A DNA stretch of 64,000 nucleotides from Nitrospira japonica (GTDB taxonomy: Bacteria; Nitrospirota; Nitrospiria; Nitrospirales; Nitrospiraceae), in the NCBI RefSeq assembly GCF_900169565.1, contig NZ_LT828648.1, forward strand, positions 1,304,876 to 1,368,875, given 5' to 3'. Position numbers and translations under genes: made by a program. A model generated the notes under the pieces. The model made no database searches and was not told the DNA's origin. It worked only from the letters and a program-made list of their open reading frames with translations. Shown here in pieces: positions 55,412 through 62,203 of this stretch; position 1 is the stretch's first letter; each line of letters starts with the position of its first letter.

Positions 55412-55428
55412 TCTCGTCTTCGGTGATC

Positions 55429-56847
55429 ATGCGCGGATCGCTCGATGACACAATCTGCGCGGTCGCGACCCCGGTTGGCGAAGGGGGCGTCGGGATCGTC
55501 CGGCTGAGCGGGCCTGACGTGCTTCGGATCGCCGGCGTGGTGGTTCGGTTACGCTCCGGCCGGCTGCTGGGGGCAGCGGCCACCCATTCATTACTTCTTG
55601 CCGATGTGGTGCCTCCCGCGTCGATGACGATCCATGAAATGGACTCGCAGGCGAGTCCGATGCGGTTTCTTGACGAAGCCCTGGTGGTATACATGAAGGG
55701 GCCGCGATCGTTCACGGGTGAGGACGTCGTCGAAATCCAATCACATGGAGGAGGATTGATTCTGTCCTTGATCTGCCAGGCTTGCGTCGAAGCTGGCGCG
55801 CGGCTTGCTGAGCCGGGTGAATTTACGAAAAGGGCATTTCTGAACGGACGCGTAGATCTGTCGCAGGCCGAGGCCGTATTGGATACGGTGCGTGCCAGGT
55901 CGGCCGCAAGCCTACACGTCGCGCAGCGACAGTTGCGAGGCGCGCTGGCTAGAGAAGTCGAATCGATCCGTACGGCACTGCTGGGATTGCTGGCCCATGT
56001 CGAGGCGGGAATTGATTTTGTCGAGGAAGACATCAGTTTCGTCACCGGGGAGGAACTTCGTCGCACGATCCAAGATGCCATACTCATGATCCGGAGGCTT
56101 TCCCGGTCTTTTCGAATGGGGAAAGTTTTGCGGGAGGGAGCTCGGGTGGTCATCCTGGGGCGACCGAACGTGGGGAAGTCGAGCTTGTTGAACCAGTTAT
56201 TGCGGGAGGATCGGGCTATTGTCACAGCGACCCCGGGGACCACACGGGATGTGATCGAGGAGTCTATCGATCTGGAGGGTGTGCGTATCCATTTGGTAGA
56301 CACAGCTGGTCTTCGAGAGACCGAAGATCCCGTGGAATTGGAAGGGATCCGTCGCACGAAACTCGCGCAGCAAGAGGCGGACCTCGCGTTAGTGGTGTTG
56401 GACGGGAGCCAGGCTCTTACCGACGAGGACCGGCAGGTGATGGACGCTGTGCGAGAGAGGCCTCGGATCATCGTGGTGAATAAGGGGGATCTTTCCCCTG
56501 TCGTTCGAGTTGAGGAGCTAGCCTCTCATAGCCTGATTTGTCCGGTATCTGCTGCGACCGGCGCGGGGTTGGATCGCTTGAGGACGGAGCTTCGCGGGCA
56601 ATTGATGTCCGGCGGAGGCGATGCCGCCGAGGCGGTAATCGTCACCAATGTGCGGCACCAAGCGGCGTTGCAACGGGCCGCGCAGGCTGCGAACCAGGCG
56701 TTGGAGTCGCTCGGTCAGGGGGCGGCCGTTGAATTGATCGCCGATGATTTGCGGGCAACGGCGGAGGCATTGGGGGAGATCACGGGGACGATCACGACCG
56801 ACGAGATTCTTGAGCGCGTGTTTGCGGAGTTCTGCATCGGCAAATAG
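55429..56847 (+). CDS. mnmE: tRNA modification GTPase MnmE
   Basis: With MnmG, makes the 5-carboxymethylaminomethyl group on wobble uridine 34 of several tRNAs. The 472-residue protein has the N-terminal formyl-THF-binding domain ([22 protein letters not shown]), a helical domain, and a G domain with [15 protein letters not shown] (G1), DTAGLRE (G3), NKGD (G4), plus the obligatory C-terminal FCIGK. No ribosome binding site is visible; a GTG two codons earlier (55423) is an alternative start. It lies nine bases upstream of mnmG. Confidence 0.96.
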
Positions 56848-56855
56848 GAAGGAAC

Positions 56856-58772
56856 ATGGATCAGCGGGAGTTCGAGATCATTGTGGTGGGAGGCGGTCAT
56901 GCCGGGTGTGAGGCCGCATTGGCCGCGGCTCGGATGGGTGCACGGACACTCCTATTGACCATGGACCCGCAGCGCATCGCGCAGATGTCCTGCAATCCTG
57001 CGATCGGCGGCATTGCCAAGGGGCACCTCGTGAAGGAGATCGATGCATTGGGAGGCGAGATGGCCAGAAACACCGACCTGGCCGGTATTCAATTTCGCTT
57101 CATCAACACGAGCAAGGGGCCGGCAGTGCGGGCGTTACGAGCGCAGTGCGACAAAGGGCTATATCGGGAGGCCATGCGGGCGACCTTGGACCGCCAGCGT
57201 GGATTGACCGTCGGTGAAGGAACGGTCGATCGGGTGCTGACCAGCGGCGGCAAAGTCACCGGCATCGTGACGCAATCCGGCGAGCGCCTGGGCACCGGGG
57301 CGGTCCTCCTGACATCAGGCACGTTCCTTAAGGGCCTGATCCATATCGGCTTGCAACATTTTACGGCCGGGCGGGCGGGCGAAGCATCGGCGGAACATTT
57401 GTCCGACTGCATGAGAGACTTTGGCTTTGAAGTGGGTCGATTGAAAACCGGTACGCCGCCACGATTGGATAGGAATACTATTGATTTTTCCGTGATGATT
57501 CCTCAGCCCGGAGACCAGCCGCCTCCGCCATTCTCATATCGGACTGATCAAATACGGACCCCGCAGCGGGATTGCCACCTGACGCACACGAATGATCGTA
57601 CGCACGACATTATTCGAAAAAATCTGGATCGGTCACCGCTTTACTCAGGTGTGATTGAATCTGCAGGACCACGGTATTGCCCGTCGATCGAAGACAAAGT
57701 GGTCCGGTTTGCCGATAAGCAGCGGCATCAGGTCTTCATCGAACCTGAAGGCCTGGAAACCAGAGAGTTTTATCCCAATGGCATCTCGACCAGCCTACCT
57801 GTCGATGTACAAGCGGCAATGCTCAAGACCATTCCTGGCTTGGAGCAGGCCATCATGCTCAAGCCTGGTTATGCGATCGAATACGATTATTTCCCGCCAC
57901 GGCAGCTGCATCCGACCTTGGAAACCAAGCTGGTTGAGGGGCTGTACCATGCGGGACAAATCAATGGAACGTCCGGATATGAAGAAGCAGCCGCCCAAGG
58001 GTTGATGGCCGGCATCAATGCCGTTTTGAAGCTGCGAGGGAACCCTCCGTTGGTTCTCGATCGATCGAAGGCCTATATTGGGGTTCTGATCGATGATTTA
58101 ATTACCAAGGATGCTCGAGAACCCTATCGCATGTTTACCTCGCGCGCCGAGTATCGCCTCCTGCTTCGCCATGGGAATGCCGATCTTCGCTTGACCGAGG
58201 AAGGTCAGAAGATTGGCCTGATTTCAGAAGGGATCTTCGCCCGTTTTCTCCGCAAGCAAAAGGCAATTTCCCATGAAATCGATAGGTTAGAGAGCCTTCG
58301 CCTCAATCCAACGGAAGATGTTCGGTTACGTCTAGCTAAGGCCGGTATTGCAGACCTTTCCAATACATCGACCCTGGCACAATTGCTGAGACGACAGGGA
58401 GTGAGTTATGAGGCATTACTGGAAAGCCTGGATATTGATCGACAGGACGATGCTGAGATTATTGAAGAAGTCCAGATTCAGATTAAGTATGCCGGGTATA
58501 TTACGCGCCAGCTTCAACAGATTGCCCGATTAAGTCGATTCGAAAGCAAATCGATTCCCCTGTCGTTCCCATATGATCAGGTTCCCGGCTTCTCCAAAGA
58601 AGTCCGGGAAAAGCTGCAAAAGGTCCGGCCCGAGTCAATTGGTCAGGCTTCCAGGATTTCCGGGGTTACTCCTGCGGCTATCTCTCTCCTTCTCGTCGCA
58701 CTAGAGAAACATAAAAGGCAAAGCCCATCTTTCGTTCCCGTTTCAGCTCAGAAAGCGGATATTCAGTCTTGA
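56856..58772 (+). CDS. mnmG: tRNA U34 carboxymethylaminomethyl-modifying enzyme MnmG (GidA)
   Basis: FAD-dependent partner of MnmE in wobble uridine modification. The 638-residue protein has the FAD motif [19 protein letters not shown] (about 8-26), [33 protein letters not shown] and the Cys-containing [17 protein letters not shown] lies five bases before the ATG. The 3' half is noticeably less GC-rich than the rest of the window. Between its stop and rsmG lies the first parS site. Confidence 0.97.
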
Positions 58773-58794
58773 CCTGTCGGACTGGTTCACGTAA

Positions 58795-59481
58795 GTGTTC
58801 CACGTGGAACATGAAGGGGACTTGGAGAGGTTTCTCATTCACTCTGCCGAAAAAATGGGTATTGCGTTGACGGGAATTCAGTCGGCGCAGTTCATGCGGT
58901 ATCTGTCTCAACTCCTACACTGGAATCGGACGATCAATCTTACAAGCATCTCGAATCCGCGAGAAATCGTGATCAAGCACTTCATCGATTCACTCATTCC
59001 AATATCTACAATCCCATTTCCTCATCAAGCTCAATTGGTTGATGTCGGGACTGGCGCGGGGTTCCCTGGAATTCCTTTGAAGATTGTCCGATCCGATCTA
59101 CGGGTCAAATTAATTGAGCCCAACAAGAAGAAATGCTCATTTCTGTCTGCGCTGATCGGGACACTCAAGCTGGCAGATGTTGAGGTTTTTTCTGGGACGA
59201 TTCAGGAGTATGCGGCGCGATCCGATGCTTCTGCACAGGTCATTACTGCGAGAGCGCTTCGCCTGGATGAGATGCAACCGGAATTAGTATCGCTGGCTCT
59301 TCCTGCCGGTAAGATCGTGCTCTACCGAACGGAGCCCCTGGCTTTACCGGACCTTCCCGCTGAATTGGCGATTGAGACGCAACAGAAATTTGAGTTGCCC
59401 GAAGATGCAGGAGAACGGGTGATTACAGTTCTCTCGGCGGAAAATAAACCAGGCTGTTCCACGTGGAACAGTCAATCATGA
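58795..59481 (+). CDS. rsmG: 16S rRNA (guanine-527-N7) methyltransferase RsmG (GidB)
   Basis: Methylates G527 in the 530 loop of 16S rRNA using SAM; loss gives low-level streptomycin resistance in other bacteria. The 228-residue protein has motif I VDVGTGAGFPGIPLKI (about 82-97) and LHWNRTINLTSI. The GTG at 58795 puts a parS palindrome inside codons 1-6 (MFHVEH), and a second parS forms the last codons (CSTWNSQS). A GTG at 58804 is an alternative start. The gene is AT-richer than its neighbours. Both ends therefore combine coding and segregation functions. Confidence 0.94.
   Translation: MFHVEHEGDLERFLIHSAEKMGIALTGIQSAQFMRYLSQLLHWNRTINLTSISNPREIVIKHFIDSLIPISTIPFPHQAQLVDVGTGAGFPGIPLKIVRSDLRVKLIEPNKKKCSFLSALIGTLKLADVEVFSGTIQEYAARSDASAQVITARALRLDEMQPELVSLALPAGKIVLYRTEPLALPDLPAELAIETQQKFELPEDAGERVITVLSAENKPGCSTWNSQS
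58796..58811. promoter_or_regulatory. parS: parS centromere site 1
   Basis: Perfect 16-base palindrome TGTTCCACGTGGAACA, a known variant of the bacterial parS consensus bound by ParB. It overlaps the first codons of rsmG and lies 0.7 kb before parA. Confidence 0.9.
59455..59470. promoter_or_regulatory. parS: parS centromere site 2
   Basis: The same 16-base palindrome as site 1, 659 bases away, inside the last codons of rsmG and 30 bases before the parA start. ParB binding here could also repress parAB transcription. Confidence 0.9.
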
Positions 59482-59499: not shown

Positions 59500-60276
59500 A
59501 TGGCTAAGACAATTGCTGTAGCCAATCAGAAGGGTGGTGTCGGAAAGACCACCACTTCCGTCAATCTTGCTGCAGGCATTGCTCTGCAAGGTAAGCAAGT
59601 CTTACTGGTGGATATGGATCCCCAAGGTAATGCCACGAGTGGTCTCGGTCTCGATCCGAGATCGCTTCAGAATAATATATATAACTGTTTGATTAATAAA
59701 GATAATATTGATGAAGTGTTGAAGAAGACCGAGATCGGCGACCTTTACGTTCTTCCTTCGAACCCCGATCTGGCAGGCGCTGAAATCGAACTGGTCAACA
59801 TGGATGAGCGCGAGCGCCGGCTTTGGCATGTGCTTCGTACGATTGAAGACCGGTTTGACTATGTGTTCTTAGATTGTCCGCCCGCGCTCGGCATCTTGAC
59901 GGTGAATGCCTTGTGCGCCGCCCGCTCGGTCTTGATTCCGGTGCAATGCGAGTACTATGCGATGGAAGGATTGACTCGGTTGATCGACAGCATCGAGCGA
60001 GTGCGCCATTCACTCAATCCCGAGTTGACGATCGAGGGGATCGTCTTGACAATGTACGACGTGAGGAATACGTTGGCGCGGCAAGTTTCCGATCAGGTTC
60101 GGGCACACTTTACCGACAAGGTCTATCAGACAACGATTCCTCGGAACGTCACGCTTGCAGAAGCCCCGAGCTATGGTCGTCCCGTCTTGTTGTACAACAT
60201 GGCGTCGACCGGCGCTCAGTCCTATCTCTCTCTCGCCAAGGAGTTTCTCGGTCATGGAGAAAAAAGCCCTGGGTAG
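59500..60276 (+). CDS. parA: Chromosome-partitioning ATPase ParA (Soj)
   Basis: Binds DNA non-specifically as an ATP dimer and is displaced by ParB-parS, moving sister origins apart. The 258-residue protein has the deviant Walker A KGGVGKTTTSVN (about 11-22) with the signature lysine, Walker A' VDMDPQGN, and Walker B FLDCPP. Its length is that of chromosomal Soj proteins without an N-terminal HTH. No ribosome binding site is obvious. The coding region contains a 42-base stretch with only five G/C. It overlaps parB by 23 bases. Confidence 0.97.
   Translation: MAKTIAVANQKGGVGKTTTSVNLAAGIALQGKQVLLVDMDPQGNATSGLGLDPRSLQNNIYNCLINKDNIDEVLKKTEIGDLYVLPSNPDLAGAEIELVNMDERERRLWHVLRTIEDRFDYVFLDCPPALGILTVNALCAARSVLIPVQCEYYAMEGLTRLIDSIERVRHSLNPELTIEGIVLTMYDVRNTLARQVSDQVRAHFTDKVYQTTIPRNVTLAEAPSYGRPVLLYNMASTGAQSYLSLAKEFLGHGEKSPG
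59671..59712 (+). other. Extreme AT-rich tract within parA
   Basis: Only 5 of 42 bases are G or C, against about 60% in the window. It encodes an Asn/Ile-rich segment (NNIYNCLINKDNID) with AAT, ATA and ATT codons that are rare elsewhere here. Confidence 0.6.
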
Positions 60277-61102
60277 GGGTCTGGAGGCGCTCCTTCCCTC
60301 CAATAAGCCGGTTTCCGTACCGGACGCGGCCGACCTGCAGCACCTTCGGGTGGATGCGATCGTTCCCAATCGATATCAACCCAGGCAGACCTTCTCGCCG
60401 GAGGAACTCGACGAACTGGCTGCCTCGCTCAAGCAAAGCGGGCTGCTGCAGCCGATCCTCGTCCGGCGCAAGGGGGATGGGATGTATGAGCTGATCTCGG
60501 GAGAGCGCCGGTGGCGGGCTTCCAAAGCCGCCGGACTGGAAACCATTCAGGCCGTTGTCCGGAACTGCAGCGATGAAGAGTCCATGGTCCTGGCCCTGGT
60601 GGAAAATCTCCAGCGCGAGGACCTCAATCCATTGGAAATGGCCAAGGCCTATCACCGTATGGTCGTGGAATTCGGCCTGACCCAGGAAGTGATTGCCCAG
60701 CGGGTCGGTTGCGAACGGTCTTCCATCGCCAACATCGTCCGGCTGCTCAACCTTCCCCAGGAGGTGCAGCAGCTCATCGAGACCGATCAGCTTTCGCTCG
60801 GGCATGCCAAGGTCATTCTAGGACTGTCGAGCCCCGCCGAGCAGCAACGGATCGCTCAGCTCATCGCGGCACGCGGCCTCTCGGTTCGGGAAACCGAAAA
60901 ACTCGTGGAATCCGCCCTCGGCGAGAAGAAGCGCAAGATCAAAGAGGTGAGGCGATCTCCGCTGTCGGACGTCGAGCACCGTTTGGAAAAGCGGTTGGGC
61001 ACCAAGGTGACGATTGCCAATGGGAAACGCGGCGGGAAAATCGTCATTCACTATTTTTCTCCGGCCGAGCTCGACGGGATTCTGGAGAATATTCTGCAGT
61101 GA
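60254..61102 (+). CDS. parB: Chromosome-partitioning protein ParB (Spo0J), CTPase
   Basis: Binds parS, then clamps and slides on DNA in a CTP-dependent way to build the partition complex. The 282-residue protein has an N-terminal ParB domain with GERRWRA (83-89, the CTP/arginine motif), a helix-turn-helix (about 145-170; LTQEVIAQRVGCERSSIANI) for parS recognition, and a C-terminal dimerisation domain. Residues 3-14 (KKALGRGLEALL) form the ParA-stimulating N-terminus. The ATG at 60254 lies within parA, overlapping by 23 bases; the frame upstream is a shadow. Confidence 0.97.
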   Translation: MEKKALGRGLEALLPSNKPVSVPDAADLQHLRVDAIVPNRYQPRQTFSPEELDELAASLKQSGLLQPILVRRKGDGMYELISGERRWRASKAAGLETIQAVVRNCSDEESMVLALVENLQREDLNPLEMAKAYHRMVVEFGLTQEVIAQRVGCERSSIANIVRLLNLPQEVQQLIETDQLSLGHAKVILGLSSPAEQQRIAQLIAARGLSVRETEKLVESALGEKKRKIKEVRRSPLSDVEHRLEKRLGTKVTIANGKRGGKIVIHYFSPAELDGILENILQ

Positions 61103-61255: not shown

Positions 61256-61741
61256 ATGTGGGGACAAGATAAACAGGACGGCAAGCGACAGACCGACGTG
61301 AACCAGGACACCGAGGAAGTTCAGGGGGAATCCGCCACCGTCAAGGAGGGCTTGGAAGACATCAGCGCCTTTGTCGGGAAAGGCGTCGATTTCAAGGGCA
61401 CGATTTCCTACAACGGCACCGTGCGAATCGACGGCTCGCTGGAGGGAGAAATTCGGACGGATGGCACGCTGCTGATCGGAGAGGATGCGATCATTCAGGC
61501 CAAGATTACGGCAGGAACCATCGTCTGCAAAGGCAAGATCACCGGAGACGTCGTTGCGCGCGAGCGCGTGAAGCTGCGTGCGCCGGCCATCGTCAATGGC
61601 AGCGTCAAGACGCCGGTTCTCTCGATGGAGGACGGCGTGCAGTTCAACGGCGGGCTGGAAATGGGTCAGGGGACTCAAGGCGCGACGGTCCACACCCTGA
61701 CCGGAAGCAGCGCCTCCGGAACCAAACGGGTGGGTGCGTAG
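61256..61741 (+). CDS. Bactofilin 1
   Basis: A 161-residue bactofilin: a central beta-helical domain (about 45-135; GTISYNGTVRIDGSLEGEIRT and GKITGDVVARERVKLRAPAI) that polymerises without nucleotide, flanked by charged, disordered ends. Bactofilins form cytoskeletal filaments at the membrane and scaffold cell-wall enzymes or chromosome-segregation proteins. AGGAGGAG lies before the ATG. It follows parB by 153 bases, and is longer than the second bactofilin mainly in its N-terminus. Confidence 0.93.
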   Translation: MWGQDKQDGKRQTDVNQDTEEVQGESATVKEGLEDISAFVGKGVDFKGTISYNGTVRIDGSLEGEIRTDGTLLIGEDAIIQAKITAGTIVCKGKITGDVVARERVKLRAPAIVNGSVKTPVLSMEDGVQFNGGLEMGQGTQGATVHTLTGSSASGTKRVGA

Positions 61742-61804: not shown

Positions 61805-62203
61805 ATGTGGGCACTGAAGGAACGCCAGAATCCGGTGGTGCAGGGTCACGACAATATCACGCTCTTCGCCAAGGACGTCCGCTTCAAGGGCGTCGTCAAG
61901 TTCGACGGCACCGTGCGGGTTGACGGGTACGTCGAGGGTGAAATCCATACGACCGGGATGCTGATCGTCGGGGAAACGGCGGTCATCAAGGGGGTCGTGT
62001 CGGCGGGCATTCTGATGAACAGCGGCAGGATCAACGGATCGATCACGGCCGCGGAAAAGATCAGCGTTCACAAGCCAGGTATCCTGGTGGGCGACATTCG
62101 CACCCCGTTGATCGCCATCGAAGAGGGGTCGCACTTTCATGGCATGTGCGACATGGGATTAGAGAGCCGGCCGGACGAATCCGCCGTCACGCTTGCCTCA
62201 TAG
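61805..62203 (+). CDS. Bactofilin 2
   Basis: A 132-residue bactofilin with the same beta-helical core (DVRFKGVVKFDGTVRVDGYV, GRINGSITAAEKISVHKPGI) and short ends. It starts WALKERQNPVV and has an N-terminal tail of only about 20 residues; GGGAGG precedes the ATG. Divergence from bactofilin 1 is clear, so this is an old duplication and the two may copolymerise. It is 63 bases downstream of bactofilin 1, probably in one operon. Confidence 0.93.
   Translation: MWALKERQNPVVQGHDNITLFAKDVRFKGVVKFDGTVRVDGYVEGEIHTTGMLIVGETAVIKGVVSAGILMNSGRINGSITAAEKISVHKPGILVGDIRTPLIAIEEGSHFHGMCDMGLESRPDESAVTLAS

Follow-up and report, generated by a model that had tools for sequence, protein, structure and literature searches.

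Two palindromes flanking rsmG

We analysed a window of 64,000 bp (C1:1304876-1368875) from the single-contig genome of Nitrospira japonica (4,084,817 bp), in which yidC, mnmE, mnmG, rsmG, parA and parB, as assigned with Pfam, follow one another on the + strand. mnmE (trmE; 55423-56847; MnmE_helical and TrmE_N) precedes mnmG (gidA; 56856-58772; GIDA, 1.8e-168), which lies upstream of rsmG and is co-directional with it. The frame of rsmG (gidB; GidB, 4.7e-38) extends from a GTG at 58795 to a TGA at 59481 and encodes 228 amino acids if this GTG is the start codon. parA (59500-60276; AAA_31, 1.7e-67, and CbiA, 1.6e-29) begins with an ATG at 59500, and its reading frame overlaps that of parB (60254-61102; HTH_ParB, ParB_N and ParB_C). 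A bactofilin gene (Pfam) and a second similar ORF are found 3' of parB, at 61256-61741 and 61805-62203 of the window; both also follow parB in another Nitrospira contig (L097), and L154 and L164 show weaker matches. A study of Myxococcus xanthus describes ParABS as organised by bactofilins (PMC5703909).

The palindrome TGTTCCACGTGGAACA occurs as two perfect copies, neither assigned to a strand, with starts 659 bases apart on either side of rsmG. Site 1 (58796-58811) overlaps codons 1-6 of rsmG, and site 2 (59455-59470) is localised at the junction between rsmG and parA, here within the rsmG tail. Both palindromes had been read correctly in the first-pass annotation, as had the position of the first at codons 1-6. 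The second, however, does not reach the last codons, ending three codons (Q, S and stop) before the end of the gene, and its closeness to parA holds with a gap of 29 bases and not 30.

Chromosomal parS sites are characterised by a 16-bp palindrome near TGTTNCACGTGAAACA or TGTTCCACGTGGAACA, by the proximity of parA and parB, and by the presence of few, unscattered copies. In N. japonica the 16-mer is perfect, both genes (ParA, and a ParB with three domains, by Pfam) lie directly downstream, and the count over the whole genome, proposed earlier as a check, returned exactly two perfect copies in 4.08 Mb with no scatter at random positions. Chance would provide about 0.001 copies of a given 16-mer in a random sequence of this size (4.08e6/4^16), and two matches appeared in none of 100 dinucleotide shuffles, even when 3 mismatches were allowed. 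The next best matches in the genome have 2 mismatches and are over 700 kb away from the pair. Within the genus, copies with at most one mismatch are present in 7/7 genomes, two in each of six and one in a genome that is 85% complete; at least one copy within two mismatches is found in 190/198 genomes of the phylum, and the pair at rsmG recurs across Nitrospiraceae.

The specificity positions of ParB were read off the printed alignment to solved ParB and Noc chains. The N. japonica protein, in which all three ParB domains are found, has R and G at the positions occupied in Noc (chain 7ng0) by Q and R, respectively; R and G at these two positions are fixed in ParBs that bind parS (PMC7383237). 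Furthermore, the ParB of Pseudomonas aeruginosa binds the identical 16-mer in vivo (PMC5098823). The adjacent ParB is predicted to bind both 16-mers. The genome-unique pair, the parA-parB neighbourhood and the parS-type contact residues of ParB thus support the earlier identification of both 16-mers as parS sites, which would be the only two of this chromosome.

The GC skew of N. japonica changes sign at about 930-945 kb, where DnaA boxes (938441 and 938922) and dnaA (939301) are located (G000:C1:938441-939780). The distance from dnaA and this switch to the only parS pair is about 425 kb, approximately 10% of the chromosome, which is far compared with most described cases. In two complete Nitrospiraceae genomes whose sampled skew switches at dnaA (G061 and G002) the corresponding distances are about 328 and 244 kb, and in four members of a sister family (f2) about 10-12 kb separate rsmG from dnaA. 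Two single-contig relatives (G255 and G116) have parS about 1.1 Mb from dnaA; we gave this shift no weight, since the sign of their GC skew switches more than twice, an arrangement that may represent either a large inversion or a misassembly. For parS of P. aeruginosa the permitted zone around oriC spans about 650 kb, and in most species parS lies near oriC, while parS displaced to about 400-650 kb is still functional in some species (PMC5098823).

Site 1, the start of rsmG and a promoter-like element

Site 1 begins at the second base of codon 1 and ends at the second base of codon 6 (V/M-F-H-V-E-H); it contains an alternative in-frame GTG at 58804 (codon 4). A comparison of RsmG termini among relatives, as the first-pass annotation had recommended, gave 84 distinct loci that share the offset of site 1, 77 of them from Nitrospiraceae, with the TTGAC element described below, and seven from outside this family. 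The phase is identical in 77/77 distinct Nitrospiraceae loci carrying site 1, the TG of the predicted start codon being the first TG of the site, and among all the Nitrospiraceae loci fetched only L275, in which site 1 has decayed, departs from it. F, H, V and E are encoded by TTC, CAC, GTG and GAA in 83, 83, 84 and 84 of the 84 loci, while the share of the commonest codon at other invariant residues of RsmG is 0.25-0.74. Since the FHVE codons are frozen and other invariant residues vary synonymously, it is the DNA and not the protein which is conserved at site 1. In some relatives from outside the order FHVE has no room because an in-frame stop is too near, so RsmG can dispense with these residues.

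Only codons 1 and 4, both overlapping parS, are always NTG in the 77 Nitrospiraceae loci. Codon 1 is TTG in 48, GTG in 15 and ATG in 14, and never CTG over 10 parsimony changes, which gives mild support to a working start codon at this position; alternatively, the exclusion of C could come from the promoter rather than from the start codon. In the other families of the order the site is sometimes in the same phase and sometimes just upstream of the rsmG start. In the 33 loci fetched from outside the order the rsmG start is always free of a site, and about ten of these loci have one at or near the 3' end of the gene. Similarly, among 80 loci obtained by a contig search (mostly Firmicutes, with other phyla) parS never lies at the rsmG start outside two Nitrospira loci; it is near rsmG in some, and those two are the only Nitrospira loci among them that carry the pair. 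The N-termini of alphaproteobacterial RsmG proteins may likewise be encoded by parS (VSRET). Of the earlier proposal that parS dictates both ends of the protein, the part concerning the N-terminus is thus supported, by sequence comparison, across the family.

Just 5' of site 1 lies a promoter-like element on the + strand, formed by a -35-like TTGACC (58769-58774), which overlaps the TGA stop of mnmG (58770-58772) in N. japonica, and a -10-like TAAGTG (58792-58797), whose last two bases are common to site 1. TTGAC-N17/18-TA, the gap being counted after the hexamer, is present at this place in 77/77 Nitrospiraceae loci, including three (L221, L223 and L271) for which the script gave other spacings and a 17-base gap was assigned by eye from a second TTGAC or an earlier TA. 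The TA step (58792-58793) is nearly invariant, with 0-1 inferred changes against about 19-28 at each mid-spacer position, and L275 retains TTGAC-N17-TA despite its decayed site 1. In 464 kb of the N. japonica genome, TTGACN-N16/18-TANNNT is enriched about fourfold over shuffled sequence. We also considered TTGAC as a mere stop codon of mnmG; it terminates a long reading frame in just 4/77 loci and is not a stop in 73/77, and this explanation was rejected.

TAAGTG does not have the final T of the consensus, and a scan for sigma-70 consensus promoters listed none at site 1 because the scanner accepts only second hexamers ending in T. The element is absent from the seven phase-locked loci outside Nitrospiraceae, so parS can overlap the start codon in its absence. 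Based on the spacing, the positions of the two hexamers would place the transcription start near 58804, the G of codon 4. Site 1 probably lies on a promoter throughout Nitrospiraceae.

Site 2 and the tail of RsmG

In N. japonica site 2 encodes C-S-T-W-N-S, followed by Q-S-stop. A second site is present in 75 Nitrospiraceae loci. It lies past the end of rsmG in 62 of them and is intragenic in 13, where frame 2 is used ten times, frame 0 twice and frame 1 once; the closest relative fetched, with an RsmG 72% identical, terminates rsmG before site 2. The distance from site 2 to the parA start has a median of about 31 bases. In a structural model of RsmG obtained from a 12-sequence alignment (mean pLDDT 85.7, pTM 0.84) residues 3-20 form part of a helix and residues 219-228 are predicted to be disordered (pLDDT <50). 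The location of site 2 mostly past the stop, its occurrence in three frames and the low confidence of the tail in the model make STWNS an accident of N. japonica, and the C-terminal part of the earlier proposal is not borne out as a general feature. Inspected by eye, the flanks of site 2, which differ between genera, revealed no conserved promoter-like element. In three loci (L070, L199 and L202) the palindrome of site 2 extends well past 16 bases (e.g. GAGAGGC...GCCTCTC), and an RNA stem is possible.

A proposed role for the two sites and comparison with known systems

We propose that both palindromes are parS, that site 1 has a triple role and that site 2 is free to drift, an explanation to which, taken as a whole, we assign a probability of about 0.6. 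The adjacent ParB would load on both sites. Site 1 would serve for this loading, provide the start of rsmG (at codon 1 or at the GTG of codon 4) and cover the -10/start region of a conserved promoter driving rsmG-parA-parB. The shared TG would pin site 1 in one reading phase, and consequently RsmG would begin with (M)FHVE(H/Q). ParB bound to site 1 may contend with RNA polymerase for this DNA and so lower the output of its own operon; the promoter activity and this repression are inferred. Site 2 would offer ParB another place to load, where rsmG meets parA, and in N. japonica the rsmG frame would simply pass through it into an unstructured tail.

It is possible, although we doubt it, that the sites are purely centromeric, parABS having long adjoined gidB, and that the promoter element runs the operon without meaningful control by ParB. 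Intragenic parS sites are indeed usual, nine of the ten predicted in P. aeruginosa lying in coding sequence (PMC4368675) and that of Thermus thermophilus inside gidB (PMC4409726), and the shared start codon might alone be enough to hold site 1 in place. Such a role does not need, however, a single phase and a single spacing to the promoter-like element in 77/77 loci, and site 2, about 660 bases away, does drift. A more extreme arrangement, in which centromere, operator and translation start are fused, with a leaderless rsmG message beginning at the G at 58804 and ParB loading setting the expression of rsmG-parA-parB throughout Nitrospiraceae, appears unlikely to us.

The first-pass annotation had placed autoregulation at site 2, which would then be, instead of site 1, the operator for the control of parA-parB by ParB. 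Site 2 is always near the parA start, but its surroundings, examined by eye, lack a conserved promoter-like element, whereas site 1 has one in 77/77 loci. We consider an operator at site 2 quite improbable and have moved the proposed autoregulation to site 1, which is the likelier place because it overlaps this element. Finally, selection on the FHVE peptide, with the likeness to parS following from the protein, is rejected despite the near invariance of this peptide in Nitrospiraceae RsmG, since synonymous positions are also frozen in the 84 loci, at site 2 the identical 16-mer is read in other frames or lies beyond the gene, and in several relatives without site 1 a close in-frame stop bars these residues.

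The locus would represent a clean natural case of a DNA-binding site fixing the first residues of a protein family-wide, with site 2 as a drifting internal control. It also offers a simple test of self-control by a chromosomal ParB, something that the study of the Mycobacterium bovis BCG gidB-parAB promoter proposed but did not show (PMC2346475). We found no literature joining parS with rsmG and ParB under those names; even so, the precedents of BCG, Thermus and P. aeruginosa make the N. japonica arrangement a variant of a published one.

In M. bovis BCG the -10 of a sigma-70-like gidB promoter with a mapped start overlaps parS ahead of parA-parB, and regulation by ParB has been proposed (PMC2346475); a comparable layout is seen in N. 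japonica, in which the overlapping element is promoter-like but departs from the consensus -10. The BCG site reads TGTTTCACGTGAAACA and the second parS of BCG is inside parA; in N. japonica, by contrast, the rsmG start codon is part of the site as well, and the whole family keeps the arrangement. T. thermophilus similarly has a gidB-internal parS immediately before parA, to which ParB binds in vitro (PMC4409726), but it is a single site and parABc is about 6 kb from oriC, compared with two sites at about 425 kb in N. japonica. P. aeruginosa shares the same 16-mer in parS2 and parS3, although it is described as having more parS sites, within 20 kb of oriC (PMC5098823, PMC5521831), and excess ParB is described there as repressing promoters beside parS3 and parS4 (PMC5521831). 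The features that appear to distinguish N. japonica from these precedents are therefore the shared start codon and the family-wide conservation.
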